This document shows positions 509-15,869 of a DNA stretch of 64,000 nucleotides, in pieces. This DNA comes from Roseicella sp. DB1501 (GTDB lineage: Bacteria > Pseudomonadota > Alphaproteobacteria > Acetobacterales > Acetobacteraceae). The position numbers were made by a program, and so were the translations under genes. Position 1 is the first letter of the stretch; each line of letters opens with the position of its first letter. Where the stretch lies: positions 310,001-374,000 of the forward strand of contig NZ_JABFHG010000001.1 of the NCBI RefSeq assembly GCF_013112485.1, in the 5' to 3' direction. Under the pieces are notes generated by a model. That model was not told the DNA's origin. It saw only the letters and a list, made by a program, of their open reading frames with translations, and did not search any database.

Positions 509-1552
509 TCAGGCCATGCTGGCGGGCAAGTACAGCCGGTCCAGCGCCTCGGCGACCTCCACGAGGCGCTCGGCCGCGGGATCGTAGCGCTCTCCCGCCG
601 CCAGGCGCGCCGCCCATGCGACGGCAGCGCGCCCGCCCCAGTCATCCGGCGGGGCAGCCAGCGGCTCCGATCGGGTGCCCTGGTGGCGCTCGGCCCGGAA
701 GTCGTAGAAGGAGCCGTCGATGTTGCGCATCGTCGCGCCGCCTTCCGTGCCATGGACATCGACGCCGATGACGGCGTCGCGGCCGGCCGGCAGGTTCCAG
801 GAACAGGCGAGGCGCACCACCGCGCCGCCCTCCAGGTCCAGCGTGGCCACCGCGTAGTCCTCCACCTGTCCGGCCCGCTCCCGCAGCGGCGCGCCGCCGG
901 CGAAGAGCCGCGCGGCGGCGCCCGTGACGCGGGGGAAGTCCAGCGCCCAGAGGGCGAGGTCCACCAGATGCACGCCGAGATCCATCAGGCAGCCGCCGCC
1001 CGATAGCGCCGGATCGCGGAACCACGGCTTGTCCGGACCGTAGGCGTTGTGGAAGACGAGATCCGCCGCATAGACCCGGCCCAGCGCCCCGGCGCGGATC
1101 AGCTCCCGGATCCGCTGCATGCCGGTGGTGAAGCGGTAGGACAGGTCCACCGCCAGCAGCCGGTCCACCGCGCGCGCGGCCGCCACCACCGCCGCCACCT
1201 CGTCGGCCCGACGCCCCAGCGGCTTCTGGCAGAACACGGCGACACCGTGCTCCAGCGCCTGGATCGCCTGCGCGGCATGCAGCGCGCTGGGCGTGGCGAT
1301 CACCACGCCGTCCAGGCCCGCCGCCAGCATCGCCTCCAGCGACGCCGCGGGGCGGGCGTCGGGGACGAGGCGGAGCGCCTCCTCCATGCAGCCGGGCGAG
1401 GGATCGACGATGACCGCGGCCTCGGCGAGGCCCGAGGCCAGCAGGGCCTGCATACGGTGCCGGCCGATCCAGCCCAGGCCGAGGAAGCCGAGGCGGAGCG
1501 GACGGCGCGAGGCGGGAGGCGGCGCCGCCCCGGCCGGCCTGTCCGGCGTCAC
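509..1552 (-). CDS. Gfo/Idh/MocA family NAD(P)-dependent oxidoreductase
   Basis: This cytoplasmic dehydrogenase (347 aa) should oxidise or reduce a sugar, sugar nucleotide or inositol hydroxyl with NAD(P). A Rossmann motif GFLGLGWIGRH lies near residues 22-32 and the family's lysine motif appears as QKPLGRR near 110. A C-terminal sandwich domain follows, of normal length for the family. The GTG start overlaps the stop of the preceding dehydrogenase gene (GTGA), so it is the last gene of the minus-strand operon. With myo-inositol-3-phosphate synthase nearby, an inositol dehydrogenase-type or UDP-sugar substrate is possible, but the sequence does not settle this. Confidence 0.85.
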   Translation of the reverse strand: MTPDRPAGAAPPPASRRPLRLGFLGLGWIGRHRMQALLASGLAEAAVIVDPSPGCMEEALRLVPDARPAASLEAMLAAGLDGVVIATPSALHAAQAIQALEHGVAVFCQKPLGRRADEVAAVVAAARAVDRLLAVDLSYRFTTGMQRIRELIRAGALGRVYAADLVFHNAYGPDKPWFRDPALSGGGCLMDLGVHLVDLALWALDFPRVTGAAARLFAGGAPLRERAGQVEDYAVATLDLEGGAVVRLACSWNLPAGRDAVIGVDVHGTEGGATMRNIDGSFYDFRAERHQGTRSEPLAAPPDDWGGRAAVAWAARLAAGERYDPAAERLVEVAEALDRLYLPASMA

Positions 1553-2517
1553 GGCACGACCACGGCCTTGAGGAACCCGTCCGGCCGGTCGCGCGTGGCA
1601 TCCAGCGCAGCGCCCAGCCGCTCCAGCGGAAAGCGGTGGGTGACCAGGCGGCCCAGATCGATCCGCCCGGCCGCGACCGCCGCCACGGCCTCGCGCATGC
1701 CGCGCAGATAGACCGCCGGGTCGCGTTCATGGGCGTTGATGACGTCGAGACCGCGCCAGTTCCATAGCCACATGTTCACCTGCCGCGGCCCGTCCTGGTG
1801 GTAGCCCGCCACGATCAGCCGCCCGCGCTCGCGGCACAGCTCTGCGGCGAGGTCGAGCGGCCAGGGCTTGCCCACCGCCTCGATCACCCGCTCGCAGAAG
1901 GCGCCGCCGGTGAGATCCTTCACCCGGGCGACGATGCCGTGATGGTCCTCCATCGGAATGGTCTCGGCCGCGCCCATCGCCCGCGCGAGGTCGAGCGAGA
2001 AGGGTCGGCGGGAGATGGCGATCACGCGCGCCCCGGCCTCGGTGGCCAGCCGCGTCAGAATGGCGCCGAGGAAGCCGATGCCGAGGATCGCCACGGTCTG
2101 CCCCGCGGCGATGTCGCAGCGGCGGAAGATGTTCATGGCGCAGCCCAGCGGCTCGCCCGGGAAGGGCAGCCCTTCCAGCGCCGCCGGCAGCGGCACCACG
2201 GCCGCCGCCTCGGCCAGGTCGTACTCGGCATAGCCGCGATAGGTCAGCGCCGCGACACGGGTGCCGGGCGGGAGGTCGATGACGCCCTCGCCCGGCGCGT
2301 CGACCACGCCCCAGGCCTCGTGGCCGAGATCGCCCGGCGCGGTCGGAAAGCGCATCCAGTCCGGTCCGGCCCAGGGGGTGAGGTTGGAGGCGCAGACGCC
2401 GCAGCCCTCCAGCCGCAGCCGCACCTGGCCCGGCCCGGGCTCGGGGCGCGGCACCTCGGCGATGCGCAGCGCGCCCGGCCCGGTCAGCACGGCCGCCCGC
2501 ATCATCGGCCGGCTCAT
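1549..2517 (-). CDS. Zinc-type (MDR) alcohol dehydrogenase
   Basis: Medium-chain dehydrogenase/reductase of 322 aa. It has an N-terminal GroES-like domain with the metal-site region GCGVCASN, the GHEAWG segment, and a Rossmann domain with the motif AILGIGFLGA. The structural-zinc cysteine lobe usual in horse-liver-type enzymes is not evident, so it resembles sorbitol dehydrogenase/bacterial sugar-type MDRs that keep only the catalytic zinc. The ATG at 2517 was chosen because it overlaps the upstream stop (ATGA); a second ATG 12 bases on is possible. It probably oxidises a hydroxyl on a sugar or polyol intermediate of this operon; the substrate is unknown. Confidence 0.85.
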   Translation of the reverse strand: MSRPMMRAAVLTGPGALRIAEVPRPEPGPGQVRLRLEGCGVCASNLTPWAGPDWMRFPTAPGDLGHEAWGVVDAPGEGVIDLPPGTRVAALTYRGYAEYDLAEAAAVVPLPAALEGLPFPGEPLGCAMNIFRRCDIAAGQTVAILGIGFLGAILTRLATEAGARVIAISRRPFSLDLARAMGAAETIPMEDHHGIVARVKDLTGGAFCERVIEAVGKPWPLDLAAELCRERGRLIVAGYHQDGPRQVNMWLWNWRGLDVINAHERDPAVYLRGMREAVAAVAAGRIDLGRLVTHRFPLERLGAALDATRDRPDGFLKAVVVP

Positions 2518-3434
2518 GCCGGTACTGGCAGGAGGGCGGGCGCCGCGGCGGGGGCGTAGCGGCGGACCATCGCGGCGCAGAACTCCGCGAACTCCTCCGG
2601 CACCAGGGGCGGACTGGTGTGGTGCGGCGCGAGGCCGCGATGCTCCGGCGTGAAGCAGAAGGTCACGGTGACGTCGAACCCGGCCAGCGCCGCCATCTGC
2701 CGGTCGAACCAGTCCAGCGCGTTGGGTCGGAAGCTGTCGGCCCAGGACAGGCCGGTGCGGAGATAGGTGACGCCGAGCCGCTTCATCCAGGCCACGGCTT
2801 CGTCCAGCCGGTGGTCCTCGAAGTGGAACCACTGGCACAGCCCCATGGCGGGCGCATGCCGGGCGAAGCGCTCCAGCGCCGGCTTCGGTGTGCCGTCCTC
2901 GCGCAGCAGCCCCATGTAGAAGTGGCGGTAGTAGGAGGAGCCCTCCGCTTCCCTGTGCCGCGTGGTGGCGCCCCAGGCTTGCGGCAGGTCGTAGAGGCTG
3001 TACCAGTGGATGCGCGGCGCCTGGCCCAGCAGCAGCTCGGCCGTGCGGTCCACGCCCCAGGCCTGCACCTCCTCGGCGCCGAAGGAGGAGACGCCGACCT
3101 CCGAGACCCAGATCGGCTTCTCCGTCACCGAGCGGATCTCGGCGATCTTGGCCGGCCATTCCTGGATCTGCCAAAGGTTCCAGTCGAGCGGGAAGCCGTG
3201 CACCGCAACCGCGTCCACCGCCTCCAGCACGCCGCGCTCGGCCATGTTCACGATGAAGGCGGGATCGATGGGGGAGATGCCGCCCAGCACGCGCGGCAGC
3301 GCCGGATTCGCCGCGCGGATCGCCTGCCCCGCCGCCCTGGCCGTCTCCGCGAACAGCGCCCAGCCCGGATCGAGTTCAGGGTCCCAGTGGGACTTGTTGT
3401 TGGGCTCGTTCCAGATCATCGCGGCCTCGATCAC
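2514..3434 (-). CDS. Clan GH-A glycosidase-like protein with apparently circularly permuted TIM barrel
   Basis: A 306-aa protein similar to beta-xylosidase (GH39-like) enzymes. The acid/base motif WNEPN is at residues 8-12 (E10) and a nucleophile-type segment PIWVSEVG is at 107-114 (E112), giving both clan GH-A carboxylates. In ordinary family members the barrel strands before WNEPN contain a G-V-x-W/Y-x-R segment, an FTP segment and an EFA-x-F-x-x-x-V-x-RY helix. Here these occur after the nucleophile: GVTYLRTGLSW (221-231), CFTPEH (260-265) and EEFAEFCAAMVRRYA (280-294). The order reads strands 4-8 then 1-3. The GTG start overlaps the methyltransferase stop (GTGA), so no hidden N-terminal half fits upstream. 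Function in the cluster could be hydrolysis or transglycosylation of a xyloside-type glycan. Confidence 0.75.
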   Translation of the reverse strand: MIEAAMIWNEPNNKSHWDPELDPGWALFAETARAAGQAIRAANPALPRVLGGISPIDPAFIVNMAERGVLEAVDAVAVHGFPLDWNLWQIQEWPAKIAEIRSVTEKPIWVSEVGVSSFGAEEVQAWGVDRTAELLLGQAPRIHWYSLYDLPQAWGATTRHREAEGSSYYRHFYMGLLREDGTPKPALERFARHAPAMGLCQWFHFEDHRLDEAVAWMKRLGVTYLRTGLSWADSFRPNALDWFDRQMAALAGFDVTVTFCFTPEHRGLAPHHTSPPLVPEEFAEFCAAMVRRYAPAAAPALLPVPA

Positions 3435-4201
3435 CGGCGCGCCTCCTTCGCGGGATAGACCGCGGCCGCGCCCCAAGGGGCCGCGGCGCGGCGGCAGAGA
3501 TAGACCTCCTCCTCCGGGCGGGAGAGGATGGCGAAGCCGGCCGAGCGCAGCATCGCCGCCGAGCAGGCGGCGTTCGGCACCCACCAGTTGGACGGGTCGT
3601 GCGCGTAGCGATGCTCGACGAAATGCAGCTTCGGATAGCCCGGCGCGTCGAACACCGCCGTCTCGGCGAAGCCGTAATCCTCGGCGACCGGCGCCGGCTC
3701 CTTCGCGCCGCGCTGCATGGACTGGAACAGCAGCAGGTCCCCGGCCACGTGTTCGTGGATCAGGTCCAGCGCCAGCAGCGGGTGGCGCAGGTGGTAGAGC
3801 ACGCCCATGAACAGCACGAGGTCGAAGCGCTCGCCGAGCGCGGCGACGTCGTAGACATCCAGCCGGCGGAACTCGATCTCCAGCCCCGTCACCTCGGCTG
3901 CGAAGCGGGCCTGGGCGAGGTAGCGCTCGTCGCTGTCGATGCCGACCACGCGCGCCGCCCCGCGCCGCTTCATCTCCAGCGCGTAGAAGCCGCCGTTGCA
4001 GCCGATATCGAGCACGCTGCGCCCGGACAGGTCGGCCGGGATGGCATGGGCGAAATGCCGGAACTTGTTCGCCGGGTAGTCGTAGAGGAAATGGTCCGGG
4101 GCGGTGCGCACGCCGCCGAGGTCGAGGTTGTGGAACCACGCGCCCAGCGCCTCGGCGCGCCGCCGGACCTCCTCGGCCGGCCGGTTGATGGCGTGCCTCA
4201 T
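3431..4201 (-). CDS. SAM-dependent methyltransferase, CmoB-like (TIGR04290-type)
   Basis: Class I methyltransferase of 256 aa with motif I VLDIGCNGGFYALEM near residues 64-78, an acidic motif II (GIDSDERYL) and a post-motif segment FDLVLFMGVLYHLRHPLLAL. These features are typical of CmoB/tRNA-mo5U methyltransferase relatives. An N-terminal segment with HNLDLGG and a Y-P-A-N-K-F motif precedes the domain. From memory it matches a family (TIGR04290, named after a Ramlibacter locus) that travels with glycosyltransferase cassettes. Neighbours on both sides overlap by 4 bases, so it likely methylates a sugar or glycan intermediate rather than tRNA. Start ATG at 4201 overlaps the upstream stop. Confidence 0.85.
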   Translation of the reverse strand: MRHAINRPAEEVRRRAEALGAWFHNLDLGGVRTAPDHFLYDYPANKFRHFAHAIPADLSGRSVLDIGCNGGFYALEMKRRGAARVVGIDSDERYLAQARFAAEVTGLEIEFRRLDVYDVAALGERFDLVLFMGVLYHLRHPLLALDLIHEHVAGDLLLFQSMQRGAKEPAPVAEDYGFAETAVFDAPGYPKLHFVEHRYAHDPSNWWVPNAACSAAMLRSAGFAILSRPEEEVYLCRRAAAPWGAAAVYPAKEARR

Positions 4202-5322
4202 GGGGCACCCTCCGTCGCTGCATGGAACGATGGCGCTGCGCCCAGCCGCGCCAGGATCGCCAGCAGCTCCGCCGCCCGATGCGCGCAGCTGTGGCGGGCG
4301 CGGATCGTCTCCAGCCCGCTCGTCGCCAGGGCGCGCCGCAGCGCCGGATCCGCGCGCAGCGCCTGGAGATGGCGCGTCATCGCCGCCTCGTCGGCCGCGG
4401 CCAGATAGTCCTGCCCGGTGCGGAACAGCCCCTCGCTGTCCTGCCAAGGCGCGCTGACCAGCGGGATGCCGCAGGCCAGCGCCTCGAACACCCGGATGGT
4501 CGGGATGCCCGGCAGCAGCCGCACATAGAAGCGGCGCGGCACATGCACGGTGGCGAGGTGCCGCGCGAAGACCTCCGGCGCGCGGGCGTTCGGCAGCCAG
4601 CCGCGGTAGCGCGCGCCGTGCCGCGCCAGCAGGGCCAGCGCCTCCTCCGGGTAGCGCACGCCGTGGATGTCGAGCGGCAGGCCGGCGGCCCGGGCGGGAC
4701 GCAGGAGGAAGGCCTCCAGCTCCTCCGTGCGCTCGCCATCGCCCCAATTGCCGATCCAGACCAGGCCCTCGCGCGGCCCCTCCTGCGCCGGCGGGCGGAA
4801 GAGCCGGGTATCCGCCGCCTCGTGCCAGACGAAGACGCGGCCGCCCCAGCCCCAGCGGCGATAGACCTCGGCCAGCGTCGCGCCGAAGGCCAGCACGCCG
4901 TCATAGCCCTCGAGGTCGAACTGCCGGATAGCCTCCGGCTCGCTGACGGCGCGGTGGTGGGTGTCGTGGAACAGCAGGGTGAAGCGGCCGCCGCGCCGGC
5001 GCGCGCGGCCGAGGGCGGCGACCAGCGCCGGGTCGTTCCATTCATGGACGATGACGGCATCGGCCCCCTCCAGCGCCGCCTCGGCCGCCACCGCCCCGCG
5101 GAAGGCGCGCGACGCCAGCGTTGGATAGGCGGCGCGGAAGGCCTCGAGCCCCGCCTCGCCGTGGTCGCGCAGCAGGTTCTCCAGGCTCCAGGCGCCCTCC
5201 GGCTCCATCGCCAGGACATCATGGCCGCGATGCGCCAGCTCGCGCAGCACGCCGCGCAGGAAATGCGCGTTGCCGTGATTCCAGCAGGAGGCGAGGGAAT
5301 GGGTGAAGTAGACGAGTCTCAC
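4198..5322 (-). CDS. CgeB-like glycosyltransferase
   Basis: A GT-B type protein of 374 aa. The N-terminus (SCWNHGNAHFLRGVLRELA, then RGHDV) follows the same pattern as two other proteins in this window (10795-11889 and 11886-12995), so the three appear to be paralogues. The C-terminal half has a nucleotide-sugar binding-type region with FEALACGIPLVSAPW near 303-317, characteristic of CgeB/DUF3880 and GT4-like enzymes. It is cytoplasmic with no signal peptide. The GTG start overlaps the stop of the upstream GT4 gene. Donor and acceptor cannot be read from sequence. Confidence 0.8.
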   Translation of the reverse strand: MRLVYFTHSLASCWNHGNAHFLRGVLRELAHRGHDVLAMEPEGAWSLENLLRDHGEAGLEAFRAAYPTLASRAFRGAVAAEAALEGADAVIVHEWNDPALVAALGRARRRGGRFTLLFHDTHHRAVSEPEAIRQFDLEGYDGVLAFGATLAEVYRRWGWGGRVFVWHEAADTRLFRPPAQEGPREGLVWIGNWGDGERTEELEAFLLRPARAAGLPLDIHGVRYPEEALALLARHGARYRGWLPNARAPEVFARHLATVHVPRRFYVRLLPGIPTIRVFEALACGIPLVSAPWQDSEGLFRTGQDYLAAADEAAMTRHLQALRADPALRRALATSGLETIRARHSCAHRAAELLAILARLGAAPSFHAATEGAP

Positions 5323-6455
5323 GCGAAGGCGGCCTCCCTGCGCGGCCCGGAGCGGGCCAGCAGCGGCTGGATGATGCCGAGCATGCCGGCCGCCATGGCA
5401 TCGGCGCTGTAGCGGCGGGCGCGCTCGCGGGCCAGGGCGCCCATCCGGGCGCTCGCCGCCGGATCGTCCAGCAGATGGGCGAGGGCCTCGGCGGCGCGGC
5501 CCGCCTCCGTCGCCGGCACCAGGAGGGCCGCGCCCTCCCACAGCTCGCGGAAGCTCGGGATGTCGGCGAGCACCAGGGCGCAGCCGGCCTGCGCCGCTTC
5601 CAGCACCGCGAGGCCGAAGGGCTCGTAACGCGCGAGCGAGACGAAGACCGGCGCGGCGCCCATCCAGGCCGACAGCGCCGTCGCGTCGAGCCGGCCGAGC
5701 GGCCGGACATGGCGCGGCGCCGCCTCGGACCCTTCCGGCCCGCGCAGCGGCCCCGCCGCCAGAACCGGCCAGGAAAGGCGCGCCGCCGCCCGGTCGAGGG
5801 TGTCGAGGTTCTTGCCGGCATCCCAGAGCCGGCCGGCGGTCAGGGCGAAGCGCGCCGGCGCCCCGGCGGGTGGCGCCGCCGGCCTGGACGGCGGCCGGCC
5901 GTTCCGCACCACCGCGGGCGGTCGCGCCAGGCCGTAGCACCGGGCCGTGGCCTCGGCGAAGGCGTGGCTCGGCGCGGTCAGCGCGTCGGCGGCGGCGTAG
6001 CCCTGCCGCAGCAGCGCCGTGCGCCAGGTGAAATCCGCCGGCAGCGGCCCGCCCCGCACGGCCTCCCACCAGGTCGCCAGGCAGGAATGGCAGGTGGCGA
6101 CCACGGGGCAGCCGAAGCCGCCCGCCTGCCCGGCCGCCAGGGCCGGGCTGTTCAGATGCAGCAGGTCTACCCCCTCCGCCCGGGCCAGCGCGGCGAGGGC
6201 GGCGCCGGCGGCGAAGACGGCCTCCGGCTTCGTTGCCAGCCAGTCGAGCGGCAATCCGGTCTGCCGCAAGCTCAGCCCGGGCACCGCCGCGGCCTGCGCC
6301 TGCTGGTCGGCGGCAGGCGGCGGACCGAGCACCGCGAGCGCCGTCGTCACGCCGAGCGGCGCCAGGGCGCCGGCCAGGTCGAGCGCATAGGTCCAGACAC
6401 CGCCGACCGCATCGGCCGTCATGAGCAGGCGCATGGGCGCGATGCCGGGCTTCAC
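5319..6455 (-). CDS. Glycosyltransferase family 4 protein
   Basis: GT-B retaining glycosyltransferase (378 aa). The N-terminal domain begins TADAVGGVWTYALDLAGAL, the donor-side domain has TAGRLWDAGKN near 227-237, and the E-x7-E element appears as EPFGLAVLEA, all GT4 hallmarks. A GTG start at 6455 is given; an internal ATG at 6434 (MRLLMTADAVGG) is a strong alternative because it places the Rossmann strand right at the N-terminus. It lies 10 bases downstream of the epimerase gene and overlaps the next glycosyltransferase start by 4 bases. It presumably adds one residue in the assembly of the cluster's glycan. Confidence 0.85.
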   Translation of the reverse strand: MKPGIAPMRLLMTADAVGGVWTYALDLAGALAPLGVTTALAVLGPPPAADQQAQAAAVPGLSLRQTGLPLDWLATKPEAVFAAGAALAALARAEGVDLLHLNSPALAAGQAGGFGCPVVATCHSCLATWWEAVRGGPLPADFTWRTALLRQGYAAADALTAPSHAFAEATARCYGLARPPAVVRNGRPPSRPAAPPAGAPARFALTAGRLWDAGKNLDTLDRAAARLSWPVLAAGPLRGPEGSEAAPRHVRPLGRLDATALSAWMGAAPVFVSLARYEPFGLAVLEAAQAGCALVLADIPSFRELWEGAALLVPATEAGRAAEALAHLLDDPAASARMGALARERARRYSADAMAAGMLGIIQPLLARSGPRREAAFA

Positions 6456-6465
6456 GTCGGCACGC

Positions 6466-7584
6466 TCACGACAAGGCGCCGGCCGCCATCTCCGCCTGCG
6501 GCGATGCGGCGATCGGCCCGTCCGGCGCCTGGCGCAGCCAGCCGGCCAGGGCGGCGAGCCCCTCCCGCCAGGGGCGCGGCGCGGCCAGGCCGAGCGCCTG
6601 CGTGGCGCGGCGCGTGTCGGAGACGTAGTAGCGCTGGTCGCCCGCCCGCCAGTCGGCGTAGCGGGTCTCCACCGGCCGGCCGGTCAGCGCGCCGATGGCG
6701 CCGAGCACCTGGCGCAGGCTGACGGCGTTGTCCGGCCCGCCGCCGAGGTTGAAGGCCTGCCCCCTCACGGCGTCGATCCTCCGCCAGGCAGCGAGATAGG
6801 CGTCCACCGCATCGCCCACATCCAGCACGTCGCGCACCTGGCAGCCGTCGCCGTAGATGCTGACCGGCTCGCCGCGCAGGGCGCGGATCAGGAAATGCGC
6901 CACCCAGCCCTGGTCCTCGGTGCCCATCTGGCGCTGGCCGTAGATGCAGCTCATGCGCAGCACCGCGGTGGGCAGGCCGAAGGAGCGGCTGAAATCCAGC
7001 ACGTACTGGTCGGCCGCGCCCTTGGAGCAGCCATAGGGCGTGTGGAAGTCGAGCGGCCGATCCTCGCCGATGCCACGCGCGCGGACCGACGGGTCACGCG
7101 GCAGGTAGGCATCGCCCAGGCGGTCGAGGGCGACGTCGGCGAGGTCGCCATAGACCTTGTTGGTGCTGGCGAAGATCAGCGGCACCGCCTCGCCGCGGCG
7201 GCGCAGCGCATCGAGCAGGTGGAAGGTGGCGCGCAGGTTGATGTCGAAATCCGCGGCGGGCTCGGCCATGCTGGTCGTCACCGCCACCTGCGCGGCGAGG
7301 TGGAAGACCGCGCTGGCCTCGCCCGCCGCCGCCGCCAGCGTCTCCGCCTCCCGGATATCGGCGATGACGGCGGTGACGCGCTGCGGGTGGCGGCGGCGCA
7401 GCCAGTCGAGGTTGGCGGCCACGCCCGGCCGCAGCAGCGCGTCGTAGACCAGCACGTCGTGCCCCGCCGCCGCGAGCCGGTCGGCGAGGTTGGAGCCGAT
7501 GAAGCCGGCGCCGCCGGTGACCAGGACCGGCCCGGCCGCGGCGCCCCGCAGGGCCGGAGCGGCGAGCGGCGTGCCGAGGCTCAC
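6466..7584 (-). CDS. NAD-dependent sugar-nucleotide epimerase, CDP-paratose/tyvelose 2-epimerase-like
   Basis: Extended short-chain dehydrogenase of 372 aa. The nucleotide motif TGGAGFIGSN lies near residues 18-27 and the catalytic Y-x3-K is in YGCSKGAADQYVLDF. That segment, plus the later DQGWVAHF, closely resembles CDP-paratose 2-epimerases (RfbE type) rather than GalE. The GTG start overlaps the stop of a second epimerase gene (GTGA). It likely makes an epimerised nucleotide sugar that feeds the glycosyltransferases downstream. No CDP-glucose or other dideoxy-sugar genes are in the window, so the true substrate may differ. Confidence 0.82.
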   Translation of the reverse strand: MSLGTPLAAPALRGAAAGPVLVTGGAGFIGSNLADRLAAAGHDVLVYDALLRPGVAANLDWLRRRHPQRVTAVIADIREAETLAAAAGEASAVFHLAAQVAVTTSMAEPAADFDINLRATFHLLDALRRRGEAVPLIFASTNKVYGDLADVALDRLGDAYLPRDPSVRARGIGEDRPLDFHTPYGCSKGAADQYVLDFSRSFGLPTAVLRMSCIYGQRQMGTEDQGWVAHFLIRALRGEPVSIYGDGCQVRDVLDVGDAVDAYLAAWRRIDAVRGQAFNLGGGPDNAVSLRQVLGAIGALTGRPVETRYADWRAGDQRYYVSDTRRATQALGLAAPRPWREGLAALAGWLRQAPDGPIAASPQAEMAAGALS

Positions 7585-8696
7585 GCGACGAGGCCCCGCA
7601 GCTCCAGTTCGCTGCGTGCCTGATGCACGCGGTCGCGCGATTGCTGTCGGGCCACCCATTCGGCCAGCTCCGCCAGGTCGGCGCGGAAGTCGCCGTGCCG
7701 CGCCGCGTAGCCGAGGCGCTCGCGGGCGCGGGTGATGTCGGGGATGTTGTGGCGGATGTCGCCGGCCCGCGCCTTGCCGGAGATCTCCGGCCGCAGCTCC
7801 GGCCGCCCCATGGCGGCGGCGAGCTCGAGCGCCACCTCCTCCACGGTGCGGTCCACGCCGCTGCCGATGTTGAAGACCTCGCCCGCCGCCTCCGGCCGGT
7901 CGAGCGCGAGGAGGAAGGCCTGCGCCACGTCCTCCACATGCACGAAGTCGCGGCGCTGGCGGCCATCCTCGAAGATCATCGGCGGCTGGCCGTTCTGCAG
8001 GCGCGCCGCGAAGATGGCCAGCACGCCGGTATAGGGGTTCGACAGCGCCTGACCGGCGCCGTAGACATTCCACAGCCGCAGCGCCACGCCCTCCCTGCCG
8101 TAGGCCGGCGCGAGGGTCAGAGTCAGCCGCTCCTGCGTGAACTTGGTGATGGCGTAGACCGAGGCGAGGCTCGGCCGCTTCCATTCCGGCGTCGGCACCG
8201 GCACCAATGGCCGGCCATGCGCGTCCAGCGGGTCCCAGGACGCGTCCGGGCCGGGGCGCGGCACGCGCACCGCATCCTCCACCAGCGCGCCCTCGGCGTC
8301 GCGGTACAGCCCCTCGCCGTAGATGCTCATGGAGGAGGCGACGACGACCCGGCGCACCGGGCTCTCGATCATCTGCTGGTACAGCACCGCCGTGCCGTGG
8401 TCGTTGACCGAGACGTAGCGGTCCACCGCATACATGCTCTGCCCGACGCCGACCTCCGCCGCCAGGTGCACTACCTTGTCCGCGCCCTGCAACGCGCGGC
8501 GCACCGCCTCCGGATCACGCACATCGCCGGTGACGATCTCGACATCCGCGTCCAGCCCATCCGCGCCGCGGTCGGCATGCACCTGCTCGATGAAGCTGTC
8601 GAGCACGCGCACATGGTCGCCGCGCGCGAGCAGGGCACGCGAGAGATGCCGGCCGATGAAGCCCGCACCGCCGGTGATCAGAATGGTCTCTGCCAA
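7581..8696 (-). CDS. NAD-dependent sugar-nucleotide epimerase, dTDP-L-rhamnose 4-epimerase (WbiB)-like
   Basis: Extended SDR of 371 aa. It has the TGGAGFIGRH nucleotide motif near the N-terminus, the S/T in SSMSIYGEG, and catalytic Y-x3-K in SVYAITKFTQERL. The segment NVYGAGQALSNPYTGV followed by an EDG-R-RDFVHV element resembles dTDP-L-rhamnose 4-epimerase and related C4 epimerases. The TTG at 8696 was chosen because GGAG lies about 8 bases upstream and the next codons lead straight into the first beta strand; an upstream in-frame start at 8756 would add residues not typical of the family. It is the first gene of the minus-strand operon. Confidence 0.78.
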   Translation of the reverse strand: MAETILITGGAGFIGRHLSRALLARGDHVRVLDSFIEQVHADRGADGLDADVEIVTGDVRDPEAVRRALQGADKVVHLAAEVGVGQSMYAVDRYVSVNDHGTAVLYQQMIESPVRRVVVASSMSIYGEGLYRDAEGALVEDAVRVPRPGPDASWDPLDAHGRPLVPVPTPEWKRPSLASVYAITKFTQERLTLTLAPAYGREGVALRLWNVYGAGQALSNPYTGVLAIFAARLQNGQPPMIFEDGRQRRDFVHVEDVAQAFLLALDRPEAAGEVFNIGSGVDRTVEEVALELAAAMGRPELRPEISGKARAGDIRHNIPDITRARERLGYAARHGDFRADLAELAEWVARQQSRDRVHQARSELELRGLVA

Positions 8697-9055
8697 AGCG
8701 GAGGCTCCGTTATGCTGCCAATCGTCCGGGCTGCAGGAGGTGCTGCCGACCGACACGCCACAGCGTACGCGCGCGGGGCGGATCGGTTGCGCGTCTGGAT
8801 TTGCCTGCCCGGATCGCGCATCGCGGCTTCGAAGCTTCTCATTGTCGCAGCAGGCTTTGAAGTAGCGCGGCCTGCGAAGCGGATCGCGCCGCGTTCACGT
8901 TGCGTTGTGTCGCAACATCGAGGTGCTGGTATGTCAGTTGTGCCGCGCGGCGCTCGGGAACTATGTTGCTGTCAGGCTGTTTCGCCTGCCGGCACGGGGG
9001 AGTGTCATGATGGGGATGAGGGCATGATTGCGGAACGTCATGCTGCAGCAACGGG
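8697..9055. promoter_or_regulatory. Divergent promoter region between the two sugar operons
   Basis: This roughly 360-base gap separates the first genes of the minus and plus operons, so both promoters must lie here or close by. It is visibly less GC-rich than its surroundings. A small inverted repeat GTTGCG-TTGTGT-CGCAAC sits at 8899-8916 and a second, CAGGC-TGTTTC-GCCTG, lies near 8973-8988. Either could be an operator. No clear sigma-70 pair could be assigned by eye. Confidence 0.5.
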
Positions 9056-10177
9056 ATGTTCAGCGTGCCCCTGCTGCGTCTTCCTCGGGACGGCGGCGTG
9101 AGCCGCAGAAAAGTTCGTGTCGCCTTGGTCGGCGTCGGCAACTGCGCGTCTTCCTTCGTGCAGGGACTCACGCATTACGCTGATGCTGCCGCCAACGAGC
9201 CCGTGCCCGGCCTGATGAATGTCGAACTGGGCGGCTACCATGTCAGCGACATCGAACTCGCCGCTGCCTTCGACGTGAACGCCTCGAAGGTCGGCTGTGA
9301 CCTGTCCGAGGCGATCCTCGCCGAGCCGAACAACACCCAGGTCTTCGCCGAGGTGCCGCGCAGCGGCGTCATCGTGCAGCGCGGCCCGACGCTGGACGGC
9401 ATCGGCCGCTATCTGAGCAACCGGGTCACCGAATCGGACGCGCCCATCGTCGATGTCGCGGCGGCGCTGGAGCGTTCGCGCGCCGATGTCCTCGTCTCCT
9501 ACCTGCCGGTCGGATCGCAACGCGCCTCCGAATGGTATGCGGAGCAGGCGCTGAAGGCCGGCTGTGCCTATGTGAACTGCATCCCGGTCTTTCTCGCCTC
9601 CAGCCCGGACTGGCACGCGCGCTTCGAGACGCGCGGCCTGCCCATCATCGGCGACGACATCAAGAGCCAGGTCGGCGCCACCATCATCCACCGCGTGCTG
9701 GCCAACCTGTTCCGCGAGCGCGGCGTGCGGCTCGACCGGACCTACCAGCTCAATTTCGGTGGCAACGCCGATTTCCTCAACATGCTGGAGCGCGAGCGGC
9801 TGGAATCGAAGAAGCTGTCCAAGACCCGGGCAGTGACCAGCGAGCTCGACGTGCCGCTGCCTGCCGAGGACGTGCATATCGGCCCGAGCGACCACGTGCC
9901 CTGGCTGGCCGATCGCAAATGGGCGCAGATCCGGCTGGAGGGCACGGGCTTCGGCGGCCTGCCGCTGAATGTCGAGCTGAAGCTGGAGGTCTGGGATTCG
10001 CCCAACTCCGCCGGCGTCGTCATCGATGCCGTCCGCTGCGCCAAGCTGGCGCTGGACCGCGGCATTGGCGGCGCGCTGGTCGGGCCGTCCAGCTACTTCA
10101 TGAAGTCGCCGCCGCAGCAATTCCACGACGGCGAGGCGCGTGAGCGGACACTGCGCTTCGTGGCGGGCGAGGGGTGA
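9056..10177 (+). CDS. ino1: Inositol-3-phosphate synthase
   Basis: The enzyme converts glucose 6-phosphate to 1L-myo-inositol 3-phosphate with NAD in the cytoplasm. The 373-aa protein has the NAD-binding segment [16 protein letters not shown] near residues 22-37, the [16 protein letters not shown] active-site stretch, and the [11 protein letters not shown] segment, all diagnostic of the short bacterial/archaeal inositol synthase type. The start at ATG 9056 gives a slightly long N-terminus; a GTG at 9101 just before [11 protein letters not shown] is also plausible. It opens the plus-strand operon and is followed 9 bases later by a phosphatase, so the cluster can make free or activated inositol. 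Confidence 0.9.
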
Positions 10178-10186
10178 GGCGCGACC

Positions 10187-10798
10187 TTGGCCGCCACCGT
10201 CTTCCTGGTCCGCCACGCCGTGCATGACCGGGTGGACCATATCCTGTGCGGCCGCATGCCCGGCGTGCGGCTGGGCGAGGCGGGGCGCGCCCAGGCCGCG
10301 GCGCTCGCCGCGCGGCTGGCGACGCAGCGGATCGGGGCAGTCCATGCCAGCCCGCTGGAGCGGGCGCAGGAGACAGCGGCGCCGCTCGCCGCGCGGCTCG
10401 GCCTGCCGCTCCGCACCGAGGCCGCCTTCGCCGAGATCGATGTCGGCGAATGGACCGGCGTCGCCTTCGTTGCCCTGGCGGCGGACCCGCGCTGGCGGCG
10501 CTGGAACGAGGCACGCGGAACGGCGCGCGCGCCGGGCGGGGAAAGCATGGCCGAGGTGCAGGCGCGCGCCGTAGCGGGCATCGAGGATCTGCGGCGCGCA
10601 ATTCCGGACGGGCGCGTCGCCGTTGTCAGCCATGCCGACGTGATCAAGGCGGCGTTGGCCGCCTTCCTGGGCCTCTCCCTCGATGACATCTGGCGGTTCG
10701 AGATCGCCCCCGCCTCCGTCAGCGCGCTGGCGGTCTGGCCGGGGGGCGGCAAGGTGCTCGGTCTGAACGCGTGCGGCACAGAGGCGGTGACGGCATGA
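10187..10798 (+). CDS. Histidine phosphatase (phosphoglycerate mutase-like) family protein
   Basis: A 203-aa phosphatase of the RHG superfamily. The catalytic motif is LVRHAVHD at residues 7-14 (His phospho-acceptor), with arginine and acid residues in ASPLERAQET and the second histidine in VVSHADVIK. A TTG start at 10187 follows a GGGTGAGG ribosome-binding stretch. The stop overlaps the next gene's ATG. Because it directly follows inositol-3-phosphate synthase, dephosphorylation of inositol phosphate or of a sugar phosphate is a reasonable guess, though family members have very varied substrates. Confidence 0.85.
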   Translation: MAATVFLVRHAVHDRVDHILCGRMPGVRLGEAGRAQAAALAARLATQRIGAVHASPLERAQETAAPLAARLGLPLRTEAAFAEIDVGEWTGVAFVALAADPRWRRWNEARGTARAPGGESMAEVQARAVAGIEDLRRAIPDGRVAVVSHADVIKAALAAFLGLSLDDIWRFEIAPASVSALAVWPGGGKVLGLNACGTEAVTA

Positions 10799-11889
10799 GG
10801 ATCGCTTTCTACGGATCGAGCCTGCTGTCCTCCTACTGGAATGGCGCGGCCACCTATTATCGCGGCCTGCTGCGCGACCTTGCCGGCCGCGGCCATGCGA
10901 TCACTTTCTACGAGCCCGACGCCTTCGACCGGCAGCAGCACCGCGACATGGAGCCGCCGGATTGGGCCGAGGTGCGCGTCTACCCGGCGCGCGAGGAGGC
11001 GATGCGCGCGGTGGCCGAGGAGGCGACGCGGGCCGATGTGGTGGTGAAGGCCAGCGGCGTCGGCGTCTTCGACGAAGCGTTGCTGGAGGGCGTCATGGCC
11101 CGGGCACGGCCGGAGGCGGTGCGGATCTTCTGGGATGTCGACGCGCCGGCGACGCTGGCGGAGATCCGGGACGAGCCGGGGCATCCGCTGCGCCGCGCCC
11201 TGCCCTCGCTCGATCTGGTGCTGACCTATGGCGGCGGCCCGCCGGTGATCGCGGCCTATGAGGCGCTCGGCGCCCGGCGCTGCATTCCCATCTACAACGC
11301 CCTGGATCCGGAGACGCACCACCCCGTGCCGGCCGACCGGCGCTTCGCCGCCGACCTCTCCTTCCTCGGCAACCGTCTGCCGGACCGCGAGGCGCGGGTG
11401 GAGCGATTCTTCCTCGATGCCGCCGCGCGTCTGCCGGAGCGGTCCTTCCTGATCGGCGGCAATGGCTGGCAGGACAAGGCGATGCCGCCCAACGTCCGCC
11501 ATATCGGCCATGTCTACACGCGTGACCACAATGCCTTCAACACGTCGCCGCTCGCGGTGCTGAACATTGCGCGCGACAGCATGGCGAGCACCGGCTACTC
11601 GCCGGCGACGCGGGTCTTCGAGGCGGCAGGGGCCGGCGCCTGCCTTATCACCGATGCCTGGATCGGGCTGGAGCTGTTCCTCAAGGAGGGCGAGGAGGTG
11701 CTCGTCGCCCGCGACGGCGCCGAGGTCGCGGCGCATCTGCGGTCGCTGACCCCGGAGCGGGCGCGGACGATCGGCCAGGCCGCGCGCGCCCGCATCCTGG
11801 ACGGGCACACCTATGCCCGGCGCGGCGCCGAGGTGGATGCGCTGCTGCGCCGCGAACGGGCGCGCCGCCTGCAGGGCAGCGCAGCGTGA
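10795..11889 (+). CDS. CgeB-like glycosyltransferase
   Basis: A 364-aa GT-B type protein. The N-terminal YGSSLLSSYWNGAATYYRG and RGHAITFYEPD resemble the CgeB/DUF3880 N-terminal domain. The middle has a YNALDPETH strand-loop. The C-terminal donor region contains STGYSPATRVFEAAGAGA near 256-273, the conserved glycine-rich part used for nucleotide-sugar binding. ATG 10795 overlaps the phosphatase stop (ATGA) and its own stop overlaps the next paralogue (GTGA), so translation is coupled across all three genes. It is cytoplasmic with no membrane segment. Confidence 0.82.
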   Translation: MRIAFYGSSLLSSYWNGAATYYRGLLRDLAGRGHAITFYEPDAFDRQQHRDMEPPDWAEVRVYPAREEAMRAVAEEATRADVVVKASGVGVFDEALLEGVMARARPEAVRIFWDVDAPATLAEIRDEPGHPLRRALPSLDLVLTYGGGPPVIAAYEALGARRCIPIYNALDPETHHPVPADRRFAADLSFLGNRLPDREARVERFFLDAAARLPERSFLIGGNGWQDKAMPPNVRHIGHVYTRDHNAFNTSPLAVLNIARDSMASTGYSPATRVFEAAGAGACLITDAWIGLELFLKEGEEVLVARDGAEVAAHLRSLTPERARTIGQAARARILDGHTYARRGAEVDALLRRERARRLQGSAA

Positions 11890-12995
11890 CGGGCCCGCCG
11901 CTGCGCTTGGTGGTGCTGGGGCTGAGCCTGTCCTCCTCCTGGGGCAACGGCCATGCCACCACCTACCGCGCCCTGCTGCGCGCCTTCGCCGGGCGCGGGC
12001 ACGAGGTGCTGTTCCTGGAGCGCGACATGCCCTGGTACGCCGCGCAGCGCGACCTCCCTGCCCCCGGTTTCTGCCGCCTGGCGCTGTATCCAGACCTCGC
12101 GGCGCTGGCAGGCTGGCGCGAGGTCATCGCCGCGGCGGATGCGGTGATCGTCGGCTCCTACGTCCCCGAGGGCGTGGTGGTCGGCCGGCTGGTGCAGGAC
12201 TGGGCGCGCGGCGTGACCGCCTTCTACGACATCGACACGCCGGTGACGCTCGGCAAGCTGCGGCGTGGCGACGAGGAGTACCTCTCGCCCGCGCTGATCC
12301 CGGGCTACGACCTGTATCTCTCCTTCACCGGCGGCCCGGTTCTGCGGCGGCTCGAGACGGAGTACGGTTCCCCCGCCGCGCGGCAGCTCTACTGCTCCGT
12401 CGACGTCGAGGCCTATCAGCCGCTGGACCTGCCGCCGCGCTGGGATCTCAGCTATCTCGGCACCTACAGCCCCGACCGCCAGCCGGTGCTGGAGCGGCTG
12501 CTGCTGGAGCCGGCGCGACGCGCCCCCGAATTGCGCTTCGTGGTGGCCGGGCCGCAATACCCGACCGACATTGTTTGGCCCGCAAATGTCGAGCGGCTGG
12601 AGCATGTCCCACCGGCCGGCCATGCCGCCTTCTACGCGCAGAGCCGCTTCACCCTAAACGTCACCCGCGCCGACATGGTCGAGGCGGGCTACAGCCCCAG
12701 CGTGCGGCTGTTCGAGGCGGGGGCCTGCGGCGTGCCGATCATCTCCGATATCTGGGATGGCATCGGGACGCTGCTGGCGCCCGGCAAGGAGATCGTGCTG
12801 GCCGACACGCCCGCAGCGGTGCTCGATGCCCTGCTCGGCCTGCCGGAGCCGCGCCGGCTGGCGATGGCCCGCGCGCTGCGCGCCCGCGTTCTGGCGGAGC
12901 ACACCGCCGAGCATCGGGCCGCGTCGTTGGAGACGTATCTCCGGTCCGTGTCCACCCTTCCCTCCCTCCCCGCTGACGCACAGGTGGTCCGTTGA
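11886..12995 (+). CDS. CgeB-like glycosyltransferase
   Basis: A 369-aa paralogue of the preceding gene. The N-terminus reads LGLSLSSSWGNGHATTYR with RGHEVLFLERD, and the donor site region is MVEAGYSPSVRLFEAGACG. GTG 11886 overlaps the upstream stop and the TGA overlaps a downstream TTG start. Two neighbouring CgeB-like genes plus a third on the other strand suggest that a glycan with at least three to four sugars is built, each by a dedicated enzyme. The family was named after a Bacillus spore-crust protein and is now treated as glycosyltransferases. Confidence 0.82.
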   Translation: MTGPPLRLVVLGLSLSSSWGNGHATTYRALLRAFAGRGHEVLFLERDMPWYAAQRDLPAPGFCRLALYPDLAALAGWREVIAAADAVIVGSYVPEGVVVGRLVQDWARGVTAFYDIDTPVTLGKLRRGDEEYLSPALIPGYDLYLSFTGGPVLRRLETEYGSPAARQLYCSVDVEAYQPLDLPPRWDLSYLGTYSPDRQPVLERLLLEPARRAPELRFVVAGPQYPTDIVWPANVERLEHVPPAGHAAFYAQSRFTLNVTRADMVEAGYSPSVRLFEAGACGVPIISDIWDGIGTLLAPGKEIVLADTPAAVLDALLGLPEPRRLAMARALRARVLAEHTAEHRAASLETYLRSVSTLPSLPADAQVVR

Positions 12996-14008
12996 AGAAC
13001 GGCAAGGCAAGACTCGCCATCGTCGCCGGCGGCGCCGGCTTCCTCGGCTCGCATCTCTGCGACGCGCTTCTCGCCTCGGGGCTGGAGGTCGTCTGCCTGG
13101 ACGATCTCAGCACGGGGCGGCGGGAGAACCTGCGGCATCTCGAGGCGAGACCCGGCTTCCGCTTCGTCGAGGCCAATATCGCGGCGCCGCTGCCCGAGGC
13201 GGTGTCGAGGATGCGAAAGCACCCAGACGCGATCTTCAACCTCGCCTGCGCCGCCTCGCCGCCGCACTACCAGGCGGATCCCGAGCACACCATGCTCACC
13301 TGCGTCATGGGCACGCGCAACCTGCTGCGTCTGGCCGAGGAAACGGGAGCGCGCTTCCTCCAGGCCTCCACCAGCGAGGTCTACGGCGATCCCGACGTCC
13401 ATCCGCAGCGGGAGGACTACTGGGGCCATGTCAACCCGACAGGGCCCCGCGCCTGCTACGACGAGGGCAAGCGCGCGGCGGAAGCGCTGATCTTCGACTT
13501 CCGCCGCGCCCGCCGTGCCGATGTCCGGGTGGCGCGCATCTTCAACACCTATGGGCCGCGCATGCGCGCGGATGACGGGCGGGTGGTGTCCAACGTGATC
13601 TGTCAGGCGCTGGCAGGAGAGGACATCACGGTCTATGGCGATGGCAGCCAGACGCGCTCCTTCTGCTATGTGGACGACCTGGTGGACGGGCTGGCACGGC
13701 TGATGGCCTGCGACACCGATCCTGAGGGCGCGGTCAATCTCGGCAATCCGGTGGAGCTGACCGTGGCCGATCTGGTGACGCGGGTGCTGGCCCTGACCGG
13801 GGCCCGCTCCCGCATCCTGCGACTGCCGCTGCCGACGGACGACCCGCGTCGTCGCCGCCCCGATATCGACCGGGCGCAGGCGCTGCTGGGCTGGCACCCG
13901 CGCGTGCCGCTGGAGGAGGGGCTGCGGGCGACGGTCGCCTGGTTCCGCCGCGAGATTGCGCCGGCGCTGCGCAGCCGGCCGGCGCCACTGGACCTGGAGA
14001 CGGGCTGA
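12992..14008 (+). CDS. UDP-glucuronate decarboxylase (UDP-xylose synthase)-like SDR
   Basis: Extended SDR of 338 aa. It has the nucleotide motif AGGAGFLGSHL near residues 12-22, the CLDDLSTGRRENL segment, TSEVYGDP, and the catalytic Y-x3-K in ACYDEGKRAAE. The last motif is typical of UXS enzymes, which oxidise and decarboxylate UDP-glucuronate to UDP-xylose. The C-terminal RRRPDIDRAQALLGW is also typical. The TTG start at 12992 overlaps the upstream stop (TTGA). A UDP-xylose supply fits with the GH39-like xylosidase homologue in the opposite operon. Confidence 0.88.
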   Translation: MKNGKARLAIVAGGAGFLGSHLCDALLASGLEVVCLDDLSTGRRENLRHLEARPGFRFVEANIAAPLPEAVSRMRKHPDAIFNLACAASPPHYQADPEHTMLTCVMGTRNLLRLAEETGARFLQASTSEVYGDPDVHPQREDYWGHVNPTGPRACYDEGKRAAEALIFDFRRARRADVRVARIFNTYGPRMRADDGRVVSNVICQALAGEDITVYGDGSQTRSFCYVDDLVDGLARLMACDTDPEGAVNLGNPVELTVADLVTRVLALTGARSRILRLPLPTDDPRRRRPDIDRAQALLGWHPRVPLEEGLRATVAWFRREIAPALRSRPAPLDLETG

Positions 14009-14078: not shown

Positions 14079-15869
14079 ATGCTGCTTTACGGCGATACGA
14101 CGCGGCTGGAGGCGACACACCCCAAGCGTATGGCGATGGCCAGGGCGCTGCGGCAGGCTTGGTCCCGGCCGTCGGGGCTGGCCCGCCACACGGCGTTGGT
14201 CGGCGCGCTGATCGAGGCAGGGGAACTGGCCCAGGGAGTCGCAGACGCCGCCTTCGCTGCGGAGGGGCACGATGCCCTTGCCCCGTCCGAGACGGCCATC
14301 ATGGCGCTGCTGCTGCGCCTCGCCGGCGCGGTGCGCGCCTCCTGGGAAAGCGGCTTCCTGCAACTGGCGTCCTGGCCGGCGGCGGAGCTGGCAACGGTCC
14401 TGGCCAGCGCCTTGCCGGAGGCCATCCACACCCGGCAGGCAGAGGGCTTCGCCTTCTATGCCCTGTATCCCGAAGCCTATCTGAATGCCGCCGCCGCCCT
14501 GCCGGCGGAGCCGAGGCGGGTTCGCGTCATCGGCCTGCGCAGCATTGGCACCGTGCTGGCGCCGATGGTCGCGGCGGCGCTCGGCACCGCGGCGTGCTGG
14601 ACGTTGCGACCGACCGGCCATCCCTTTCAGCGGAGGCTCGACCTGGCGCCGGCACTGCGCGCCGCCATCCTCGCCGACCCCGCCGCCCGCTTCGCCCTGG
14701 TGGATGAAGGGCCGGGCCTGTCCGGCAGCAGCTTCGCGGCGGGGCTCGACCTGCTGGAGGGCACAGGCATCCCCGCGGCGCGCATTCATTTGCTGCCCGG
14801 CCATGCGGGGCCGCCCGGCGGCCAGGCGAGCCCGACGCTGCGCGCGCGCTGGCCAGGCCTGCAGCGGCACCCGGCACGGTTCGATGACCTGCTGCACTCG
14901 CCCCGCGCCGAGCATCGGCTGGGCCGCTGGGCCGCGGATCTCCTCGGCGTGGCGGAGGCGCCGCTGCAGGATCTCTCCGGCGGCGCCTGGCGGGCGGCGC
15001 GTGGCCTGCCGCACGCCCAATGGCCGCCCATTCATCCCTATATGGAGCGCCGGAAATTCCTGCTGCGCGCCGAGGGCGGGAGCTGGCGACTGAAATTCGC
15101 CGGGCTGGGCCGGGCCGCGACGGCGCGGCTGCGCCGCGCCCAGCTTCTGCACGTCGCGGGCTTCACGCCCGAGCCGGTGGGCCTCTGCCACGGCTTCCTG
15201 GTCGAGCGGCATATCGAGGACGCGGTTCTTCCGGTGCCCGCCGCCTTGCCGCGGGACCGGCTGGTGGAACGGCTGGGCCGGTATCTCGGCTTTCGCGCGC
15301 GGCATTTTCCCGCCCCGGCCGCGGCGGGCGCCTCGCTCGACAGCCTTTGGCAGATGGCGCGCCACAACGCCTCCATGGTTCTGGGCGAGGCGGAGGCCCG
15401 CCCCCTCGACGCGCTGCGCCCGGCCATCCCCGGGCTGGAACGCCAGCGTCGCCCGGTCTGGACCGACAACCGCATGCATGTCTGGGAATGGTTGCTGCGC
15501 CCGGGAGGCGGCCTGCTGAAGACCGACGCGCTGGACCACGCGGACGCGCATGACCTCGTCGGCTGCCAGGACATCGCCTGGGACATCGTCGGCGCCCGCG
15601 TCGAATGGTCGCTCTCGCCAGCGGAGGCGGAGAGCCTCCGCGCGATCGTCGCGCAGGAGGCCGGCGTTGCGCCCCTGCCGGTCTTGATCGCGTTCCTGAC
15701 GCCCTGCTACCTGGCTTTTCAAATGGGCTACTACAGCATGGCGGCTGATGCGTCAGTCTGTCCACAAGACAAGGCACGCGCCGCCGCCGCCGCTCATTGC
15801 TACGAAGCCAGGCTGCGCAGCGTTCTGTCCTCCAGTCTTTGCGCCACGGCGCTTTGGTACCCTGCTTAG
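14079..15869 (+). CDS. Uncharacterised protein with phosphoribosyltransferase-like and kinase-like regions
   Basis: I do not recognise this 596-aa protein as a named family. Residues about 148-235 contain VRVIGLRSIGTVLAP and ALVDEGPGLSGSSF, resembling the hydrophobic strand and PRPP-binding loop (acidic pair, then G-x-S/T-G-x-S/T) of phosphoribosyltransferases. Residues about 327-345 (FLLRAEGGSWRLKFAGLGR) and 461-510 (TDNRMHVWEWL, then CQDIAWDIVGA) resemble the ATP-lysine strand and catalytic loops of aminoglycoside-phosphotransferase-type kinases. The N-terminal 140 residues are helical and alanine-rich. It lies 70 bases after the UXS gene on the same strand, so it may be the last gene of the cluster, but it could have its own promoter. 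Domain assignments are by eye. Confidence 0.6.
   Translation: MLLYGDTTRLEATHPKRMAMARALRQAWSRPSGLARHTALVGALIEAGELAQGVADAAFAAEGHDALAPSETAIMALLLRLAGAVRASWESGFLQLASWPAAELATVLASALPEAIHTRQAEGFAFYALYPEAYLNAAAALPAEPRRVRVIGLRSIGTVLAPMVAAALGTAACWTLRPTGHPFQRRLDLAPALRAAILADPAARFALVDEGPGLSGSSFAAGLDLLEGTGIPAARIHLLPGHAGPPGGQASPTLRARWPGLQRHPARFDDLLHSPRAEHRLGRWAADLLGVAEAPLQDLSGGAWRAARGLPHAQWPPIHPYMERRKFLLRAEGGSWRLKFAGLGRAATARLRRAQLLHVAGFTPEPVGLCHGFLVERHIEDAVLPVPAALPRDRLVERLGRYLGFRARHFPAPAAAGASLDSLWQMARHNASMVLGEAEARPLDALRPAIPGLERQRRPVWTDNRMHVWEWLLRPGGGLLKTDALDHADAHDLVGCQDIAWDIVGARVEWSLSPAEAESLRAIVAQEAGVAPLPVLIAFLTPCYLAFQMGYYSMAADASVCPQDKARAAAAAHCYEARLRSVLSSSLCATALWYPA

Follow-up and report, generated by a model that had tools for sequence, protein, structure and literature searches.

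Clan GH-A glycosidases share a (β/α)8 barrel in which the acid/base glutamate lies on strand 4 (within an Asn-Glu motif) and the nucleophile glutamate on strand 7. To our knowledge, few catalytic barrels are known to be circularly permuted in nature, and the most familiar case among glycosidases, the GH70 family, comes with large domain rearrangements. The barrel of GH70 glucansucrases is naturally permuted relative to that of GH13 amylases, with the cut between strands 3 and 4 (PMC4919382), and a natural circular permutation between TIM barrels has also been described for transaldolase and class I aldolase (PMC2213659). Normal strand order is kept in PslG, which is described as an intracellular hydrolase belonging to a polysaccharide biosynthesis cluster, with E165 and E276 as its key residues and a location mainly at the inner membrane and partly in the periplasm (PMC9075953).

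Here, we describe a gene (pGH) from the window, the whole 64,000-nucleotide stretch of Roseicella sp. DB1501 DNA that was analyzed, which very probably encodes a natural circular permutant of a PslG/GH39-like clan GH-A barrel within a saccharide gene cluster. The chain would begin just before barrel strand 4, pass through strands 4–8 and a short new linker, and end after helix 3. The features of the gene are as follows:

2514–3434, minus strand: pGH, predicted circularly permuted PslG/GH39-like (β/α)8 glycosidase (306 a.a., GTG start; both ends overlap the neighboring genes)
2862–3434, minus strand: residues 1–191, barrel strands 4–8 and helices 4–8, normally the C-terminal part (matches canonical profile 106–283 and PslG 132–322)
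2844–2861, minus strand: residues 192–197, new linker that connects helix 8 (the former C-terminus) with strand 1 (the former N-terminus), at the boundary between the two matched segments
2550–2843, minus strand: residues 198–295, barrel strands 1–3 and helices 1–3, normally the N-terminal part (matches canonical profile 1–99 and PslG 25–130)
3399–3413, minus strand: WNEPN motif; E10 (3405–3407) is the predicted acid/base, aligned with the PslG WNEPN glutamate
3099–3101, minus strand: E112, the putative nucleophile, which aligns with the other catalytic glutamate of PslG
3431–3434, minus strand: GTGA overlap of the pGH start and the stop of the upstream methyltransferase gene, read from the sequence

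The 306 residues, read on the minus strand from 3434 to 2514, open with VIEAAMIWNEPNN, and the nucleophile lies within the motif WVSEVG. The initial annotation had placed WNEPN at residues 8–12 and E112 after it, with GVTYLRTGLSW, CFTPEH, and EEFAEFCAAMVRRYA downstream of both, and translation of the minus-strand open reading frame bears this out. The gene is also complete, as had been claimed, with start and stop codons that overlap the neighboring genes by 4 bp on each side (GTGA, and ATGA at 2517–2514, where the pGH stop meets the start of the downstream dehydrogenase). The cut point of the permutation is in the loop that connects helix 3 to strand 4.

The evidence for permutation rests on a profile of ten normal-order homologs from alphaproteobacterial genomes (the canonical family), which we scored on every third rotation of pGH. 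The rotated alignment is continuous and better than the native one, with 155.0 bits after rotation by 195 residues vs. 107.4 bits in native order, a gain of ~48 bits obtained within one alignment. A permutation-aware alignment, which the initial annotation had put forward as the check on its reading of strands 4–8 followed by 1–3, gave the same picture, in that the doubled pGH sequence returned a single match running across the join at residue 306 (profile 1–283 on residues 198–491). Given the best of 200 shuffles reached 3.8 bits against this profile, the order of the segments is not due to chance. Scored by segment, the strand 4–8 part gave 108 bits and the strand 1–3 part 46 bits. PslG was matched twice and in swapped order by a plain search of PDB sequences, and a 33-homolog profile returned it as the sole PDB sequence match below 1e-3 (E = 8e-8), with pGH residues 3–187 on PslG 132–322 and residues 200–295 on PslG 25–130. 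pGH has the permuted order, both of its segments are homologous to one normal-order family, its two catalytic glutamates are conserved, and it keeps a stable place in a saccharide cluster. The gene also shows how permuted enzymes hide: Pfam returned a partial, sub-threshold match to PF11790 (18.6 bits, cut-off 21) and no GH39 match, NCBIfam returned no match, and members of the family are labeled "hypothetical" or "beta-xylosidase" in databases.

The AlphaFold2 model of pGH, built with 33 homologs (pTM 0.85, mean pLDDT 83.5), contains eight strands (residues 4–8, 48–50, 75–80, 108–113, 142–145, 198–200, 224–230, and 254–260) alternating with helices, and its strand order reads 4-5-6-7-8-1-2-3. 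E10 lies at the end of the first strand and E112 at that of the fourth, strands that correspond by homology to barrel strands 4 and 7, as the initial annotation had proposed; two loops near the active site (residues 11–15 and 155–167) have pLDDT below 50. A canonical relative was modeled (pTM 0.82) with identical elements in 1–8 order. From the model and from conservation, the catalytic glutamates of pGH are predicted to occupy the positions characteristic of clan GH-A, with strands numbered by homology to the canonical model. Foldseek aligns structures in the order of the chain; it placed PslG and another GH39 structure at the top for the canonical model (E ~1e-10, ~330–350 columns) and returned partial clan GH-A matches of ~190 columns together with generic barrels for the pGH model.

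Searches by sequence and by fold both lead to PslG and clan GH-A rather than to GH13 or GH70, and we therefore rejected pGH as a GH70-type permuted glucansucrase. Like pGH, the GH70 enzymes have a glycosidase barrel that is naturally permuted and cut between strands 3 and 4, but they belong to another clan, are large multidomain makers of alpha-glucans, and arose by an independent event. The transaldolase/aldolase pair differs further, with a shift by two units, a distant relationship, and no glycosidase. PslG of Pseudomonas aeruginosa (clan GH-A, GH39-related) has the same two catalytic glutamates by alignment and a saccharide-type cluster but differs from pGH in its normal strand order and in its inner-membrane and partly periplasmic location, and we know of no epimerase, INO1, or TIGR04290 partner of PslG.

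Relatives of pGH are encoded by at least 575 stretches found via a pattern scan of the genome collection, and the best 80 of these are 78–86% identical and occur in Roseomonas, Microvirga, Methylobacterium, Mesorhizobium, Bradyrhizobium, and others; the family is widespread in alphaproteobacteria, hundreds of which carry a member. We extracted 92 permuted homologs for start-codon and motif counts. All share the position of the start codon and carry WNEPN, while the nucleophile motif WV[ST]E[VL]G is present in 91 of them, and E112 is invariant among 33 aligned homologs. The termini are likewise conserved at the permuted positions, and pGH is a complete gene. At the 68 named pGH loci with a detected methyltransferase gene, the overlap of its stop with the pGH start is 4 bp in 54 and 8 bp in 11 (65/68 in total), the L093 locus has a stop codon immediately before the pGH start, and several homologs stop right after helix 3, at ..RRYA. 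Compared with six close relatives, pGH shows a dN of 0.07–0.10 and a dS of 0.37–0.55 (dN/dS ~0.2).

In the window, pGH belongs to a cluster of saccharide-type genes, in which INO1, the phosphatase, GTc, GTd, and epi3 are divergent from the genes on the pGH side:

509–1552, minus strand: Gfo/Idh/MocA oxidoreductase (nearest curated model inositol 2-dehydrogenase, with a score far under its cut-off)
1549–2517, minus strand: zinc-type (MDR) dehydrogenase (PF00107 and PF08240)
3431–4201, minus strand: TIGR04290 family methyltransferase, the usual upstream neighbor of pGH (378.9 bits, cut-off 300)
4198–5322, minus strand: GTb, glycosyltransferase (PF13524), conserved in both cluster types
5319–6455, minus strand: GTa, glycosyltransferase family 4 (PF13439)
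6466–7584, minus strand: epi2, NAD-dependent sugar epimerase/dehydratase, stand-alone here; in canonical clusters, part of a fusion with the normal-order barrel
7581–8756, minus strand: epi1, NAD-dependent sugar epimerase/dehydratase
9056–10177, plus strand: INO1, inositol-3-phosphate synthase (PF01658, 118.5 bits, cut-off 27; TIGR03450, 533 bits, under its cut-off of 638)
10187–10798, plus strand: histidine-superfamily phosphatase beside INO1 (PF00300)
10771–14008, plus strand: glycosyltransferases GTc (10771–11889) and GTd (11886–12995) and epimerase epi3 (12992–14008), homologous to canonical-cluster genes

Among the 80 named pGH loci, the TIGR04290 methyltransferase was found in 71, and INO1 together with the histidine phosphatase lies near pGH in 57.

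The closest barrel homologs of pGH are the canonical fusions (e.g., L102, L103, and L105), which share 36–39% identity with it over strands 4–8; canonical and permuted barrels are ~39% identical. The canonical clusters contain homologs of most window-cluster genes, including epi1, epi2, the glycosyltransferase, and usually the TIGR04290 methyltransferase, but they differ in that the barrel runs in 1–8 order and is fused to the N-terminus of epi2, INO1 is absent from the 12 canonical-type genomes tested, and a TIGR04295 B12/radical-SAM neighbor is present in most. When nine canonical regions were read over 16–20 kb, a TIGR04295 homolog was noted in eight and a methyltransferase in six. Across the searched genomes, the intact canonical domain occurs in 12 and the permuted form in 66, with the permuted form in none of the 12, and the families f1, f50, f91, and f169 each contain both types. 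A second match in the genome G053, seemingly another partial barrel, was judged by eye to be an unrelated GH1-like beta-glucosidase and set aside.

Five genomes of one genus (G390, G820, G825, G830, and G809; loci L169 and L227–L230) carry an intact pGH together with a canonical fusion to epi2 in which the barrel is degenerate. In all five fusions, AAAPG or AATPA stands in place of WNEPNN; four have G or A at the nucleophile position, and one retains E. In the genome G254, pGH occurs alongside part of a canonical fusion that lies at a contig edge and has an intact nucleophile (L200 on contig C108 and L201 on contig C54), so the two forms are not strictly exclusive; this genome possibly represents an intermediate state with both. 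A genome-wide search found INO1 in 16 of 16 permuted-type and 0 of 12 canonical-type genomes, a small set of 28 counted regardless of relatedness, which was fixed before this search yet after INO1 had been noticed beside pGH at some loci. This link suggests that the two forms may not do the same job, and both G254 and the INO1 difference make it less likely that the permuted form simply took the place of the canonical one, gene for gene.

In a barrel tree of rotated permuted, canonical, and normal-order outgroup sequences, the permuted barrels form one group (support 84/87) and the canonical and degenerate barrels another (support 100/99). Given PslG, GH39, and the other outgroups are all in normal order, we take the permuted order as derived. 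In the epi2 tree, most stand-alone copies branch from within the fused ones, with moderate support, which is consistent with a fusion older than the stand-alone form, the direction of change being suggestive. Trees of strands 1–3 and strands 4–8 built separately placed neither segment inside a particular canonical lineage, and in the former (106 columns) long branches drew the outgroup into the permuted rows, making it uninformative on the root. The window's own genome also encodes, on contig C23 (L106), two neighboring PslG/GH39-like proteins of normal order, one of which carries C-terminal repeats; this pair was used as an outgroup only.

A gene truncated or frameshifted so as to lose its normal N-terminal half, with a C-terminal segment that is an unrelated add-on or a chance likeness, could be suspected from the Pfam result, since without a permutation-aware search only part of one weak domain, PF11790, is seen. 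The C-terminal segment, however, matches strands 1–3 of both the canonical family and PslG, and the start codon and full length common to 92 homologs, together with the continuous match of the doubled sequence, rule this origin out, leaving it a negligible probability. No homolog with a normal N-terminal half lost by frameshift was found, in line with the initial annotation, which had argued against truncation. It is hardly more credible that segments of different barrels recombined, as opposed to one gene being permuted. The unequal profile scores of the two segments would fit such a chimera, and the separate strand 1–3 tree is too short for reliable outgroup placement, but the strand 4–8 segment is twice as long and carries the catalytic motifs, and the lower-scoring segment nevertheless retrieves the same canonical family (G872, 40% over residues 190–292). 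The rotation gain within one alignment and the placement of the segments outside any particular canonical lineage likewise speak for the permutation of a single gene.

A pseudoenzyme or structural partner in place of a working glycosidase is also improbable, if somewhat less so. The activity of pGH is predicted from sequence and its cluster is biosynthetic, which would leave room for such a role; against it stand the near-complete conservation of both catalytic motifs in the 92 homologs and the low dN/dS. By contrast, the canonical domains that visibly lost the catalytic motif in five pGH genomes show what release from catalysis looks like in this barrel family. A functional variant of the circular-permutant reading deserves more weight, though still somewhat less than even chances: pGH would work in an inositol module (INO1, phosphatase, methyltransferase, and pGH) on an inositol glycoside, and the canonical domain in an inositol-free version of the pathway. 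The split of INO1 between the two genome types, its presence with the phosphatase near most pGH loci, and the retention of both pGH and a canonical fragment in G254 argue for different jobs, but the remaining gene set is common to both cluster types, and the decay of the canonical barrel in five pGH genomes fits replacement by an equivalent enzyme.

As a circular permutant, pGH would fold as a closed barrel and act by a retaining mechanism as a glycosidase or transglycosidase, E10 being the acid/base and E112 the nucleophile. The enzyme would act in the cytoplasm, given that its chain opens at a barrel strand, with no room for a signal peptide, and that its normal-order homolog is fused to a nucleotide-sugar epimerase. 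There, its task would be to trim or transfer a sugar on a pathway intermediate, the pathway leading to an oligosaccharide or glycoside, and the permuted-type clusters would also make inositol phosphate; given the INO1 link, the substrate of the permuted type may be an inositol glycoside. A precedent is PslG, a hydrolase whose gene belongs to a polysaccharide cluster and whose intracellular role has been studied. The permutation itself likely arose when the barrel gene was duplicated and the outer halves were then lost. Tentatively, it may have accompanied a change of partner and substrate, in which the barrel left its epimerase fusion, was recut between strands 3 and 4, and joined an inositol-phosphate/methyltransferase module; the fused barrel left behind would then have degenerated into a pseudoenzyme in one lineage or more.

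In the open-access literature, with most subscription journals outside the scope of our search, we found no report of a circular permutation in clan GH-A or GH39 and no paper on TIGR04290, TIGR04295, or Rta_06860. pGH is a compact, single-domain permutant that is widespread and strongly conserved, and its normal-order homolog survives in a similar cluster. Together, the permuted and normal-order forms offer an unusually clean natural case of a protein cut and re-joined in the course of evolution, and with both surviving and decaying normal-order copies at hand, the route and consequences of the permutation are directly testable. The tie to INO1 further provides a handle on an uncharacterized alphaproteobacterial saccharide pathway.

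Two further observations concern the surroundings of the permuted gene. On pSymB of Sinorhizobium meliloti ml47 (L239), the permuted gene, U8C43_14330, is annotated as a beta-xylosidase and adjoins INO1 and the histidine phosphatase without the methyltransferase, and a polysaccharide pyruvyl transferase gene lies nearby. In the window, positions 14079–15869 encode a 596-residue protein with no Pfam match, homologs of which occur in 12 of the 80 pGH loci.
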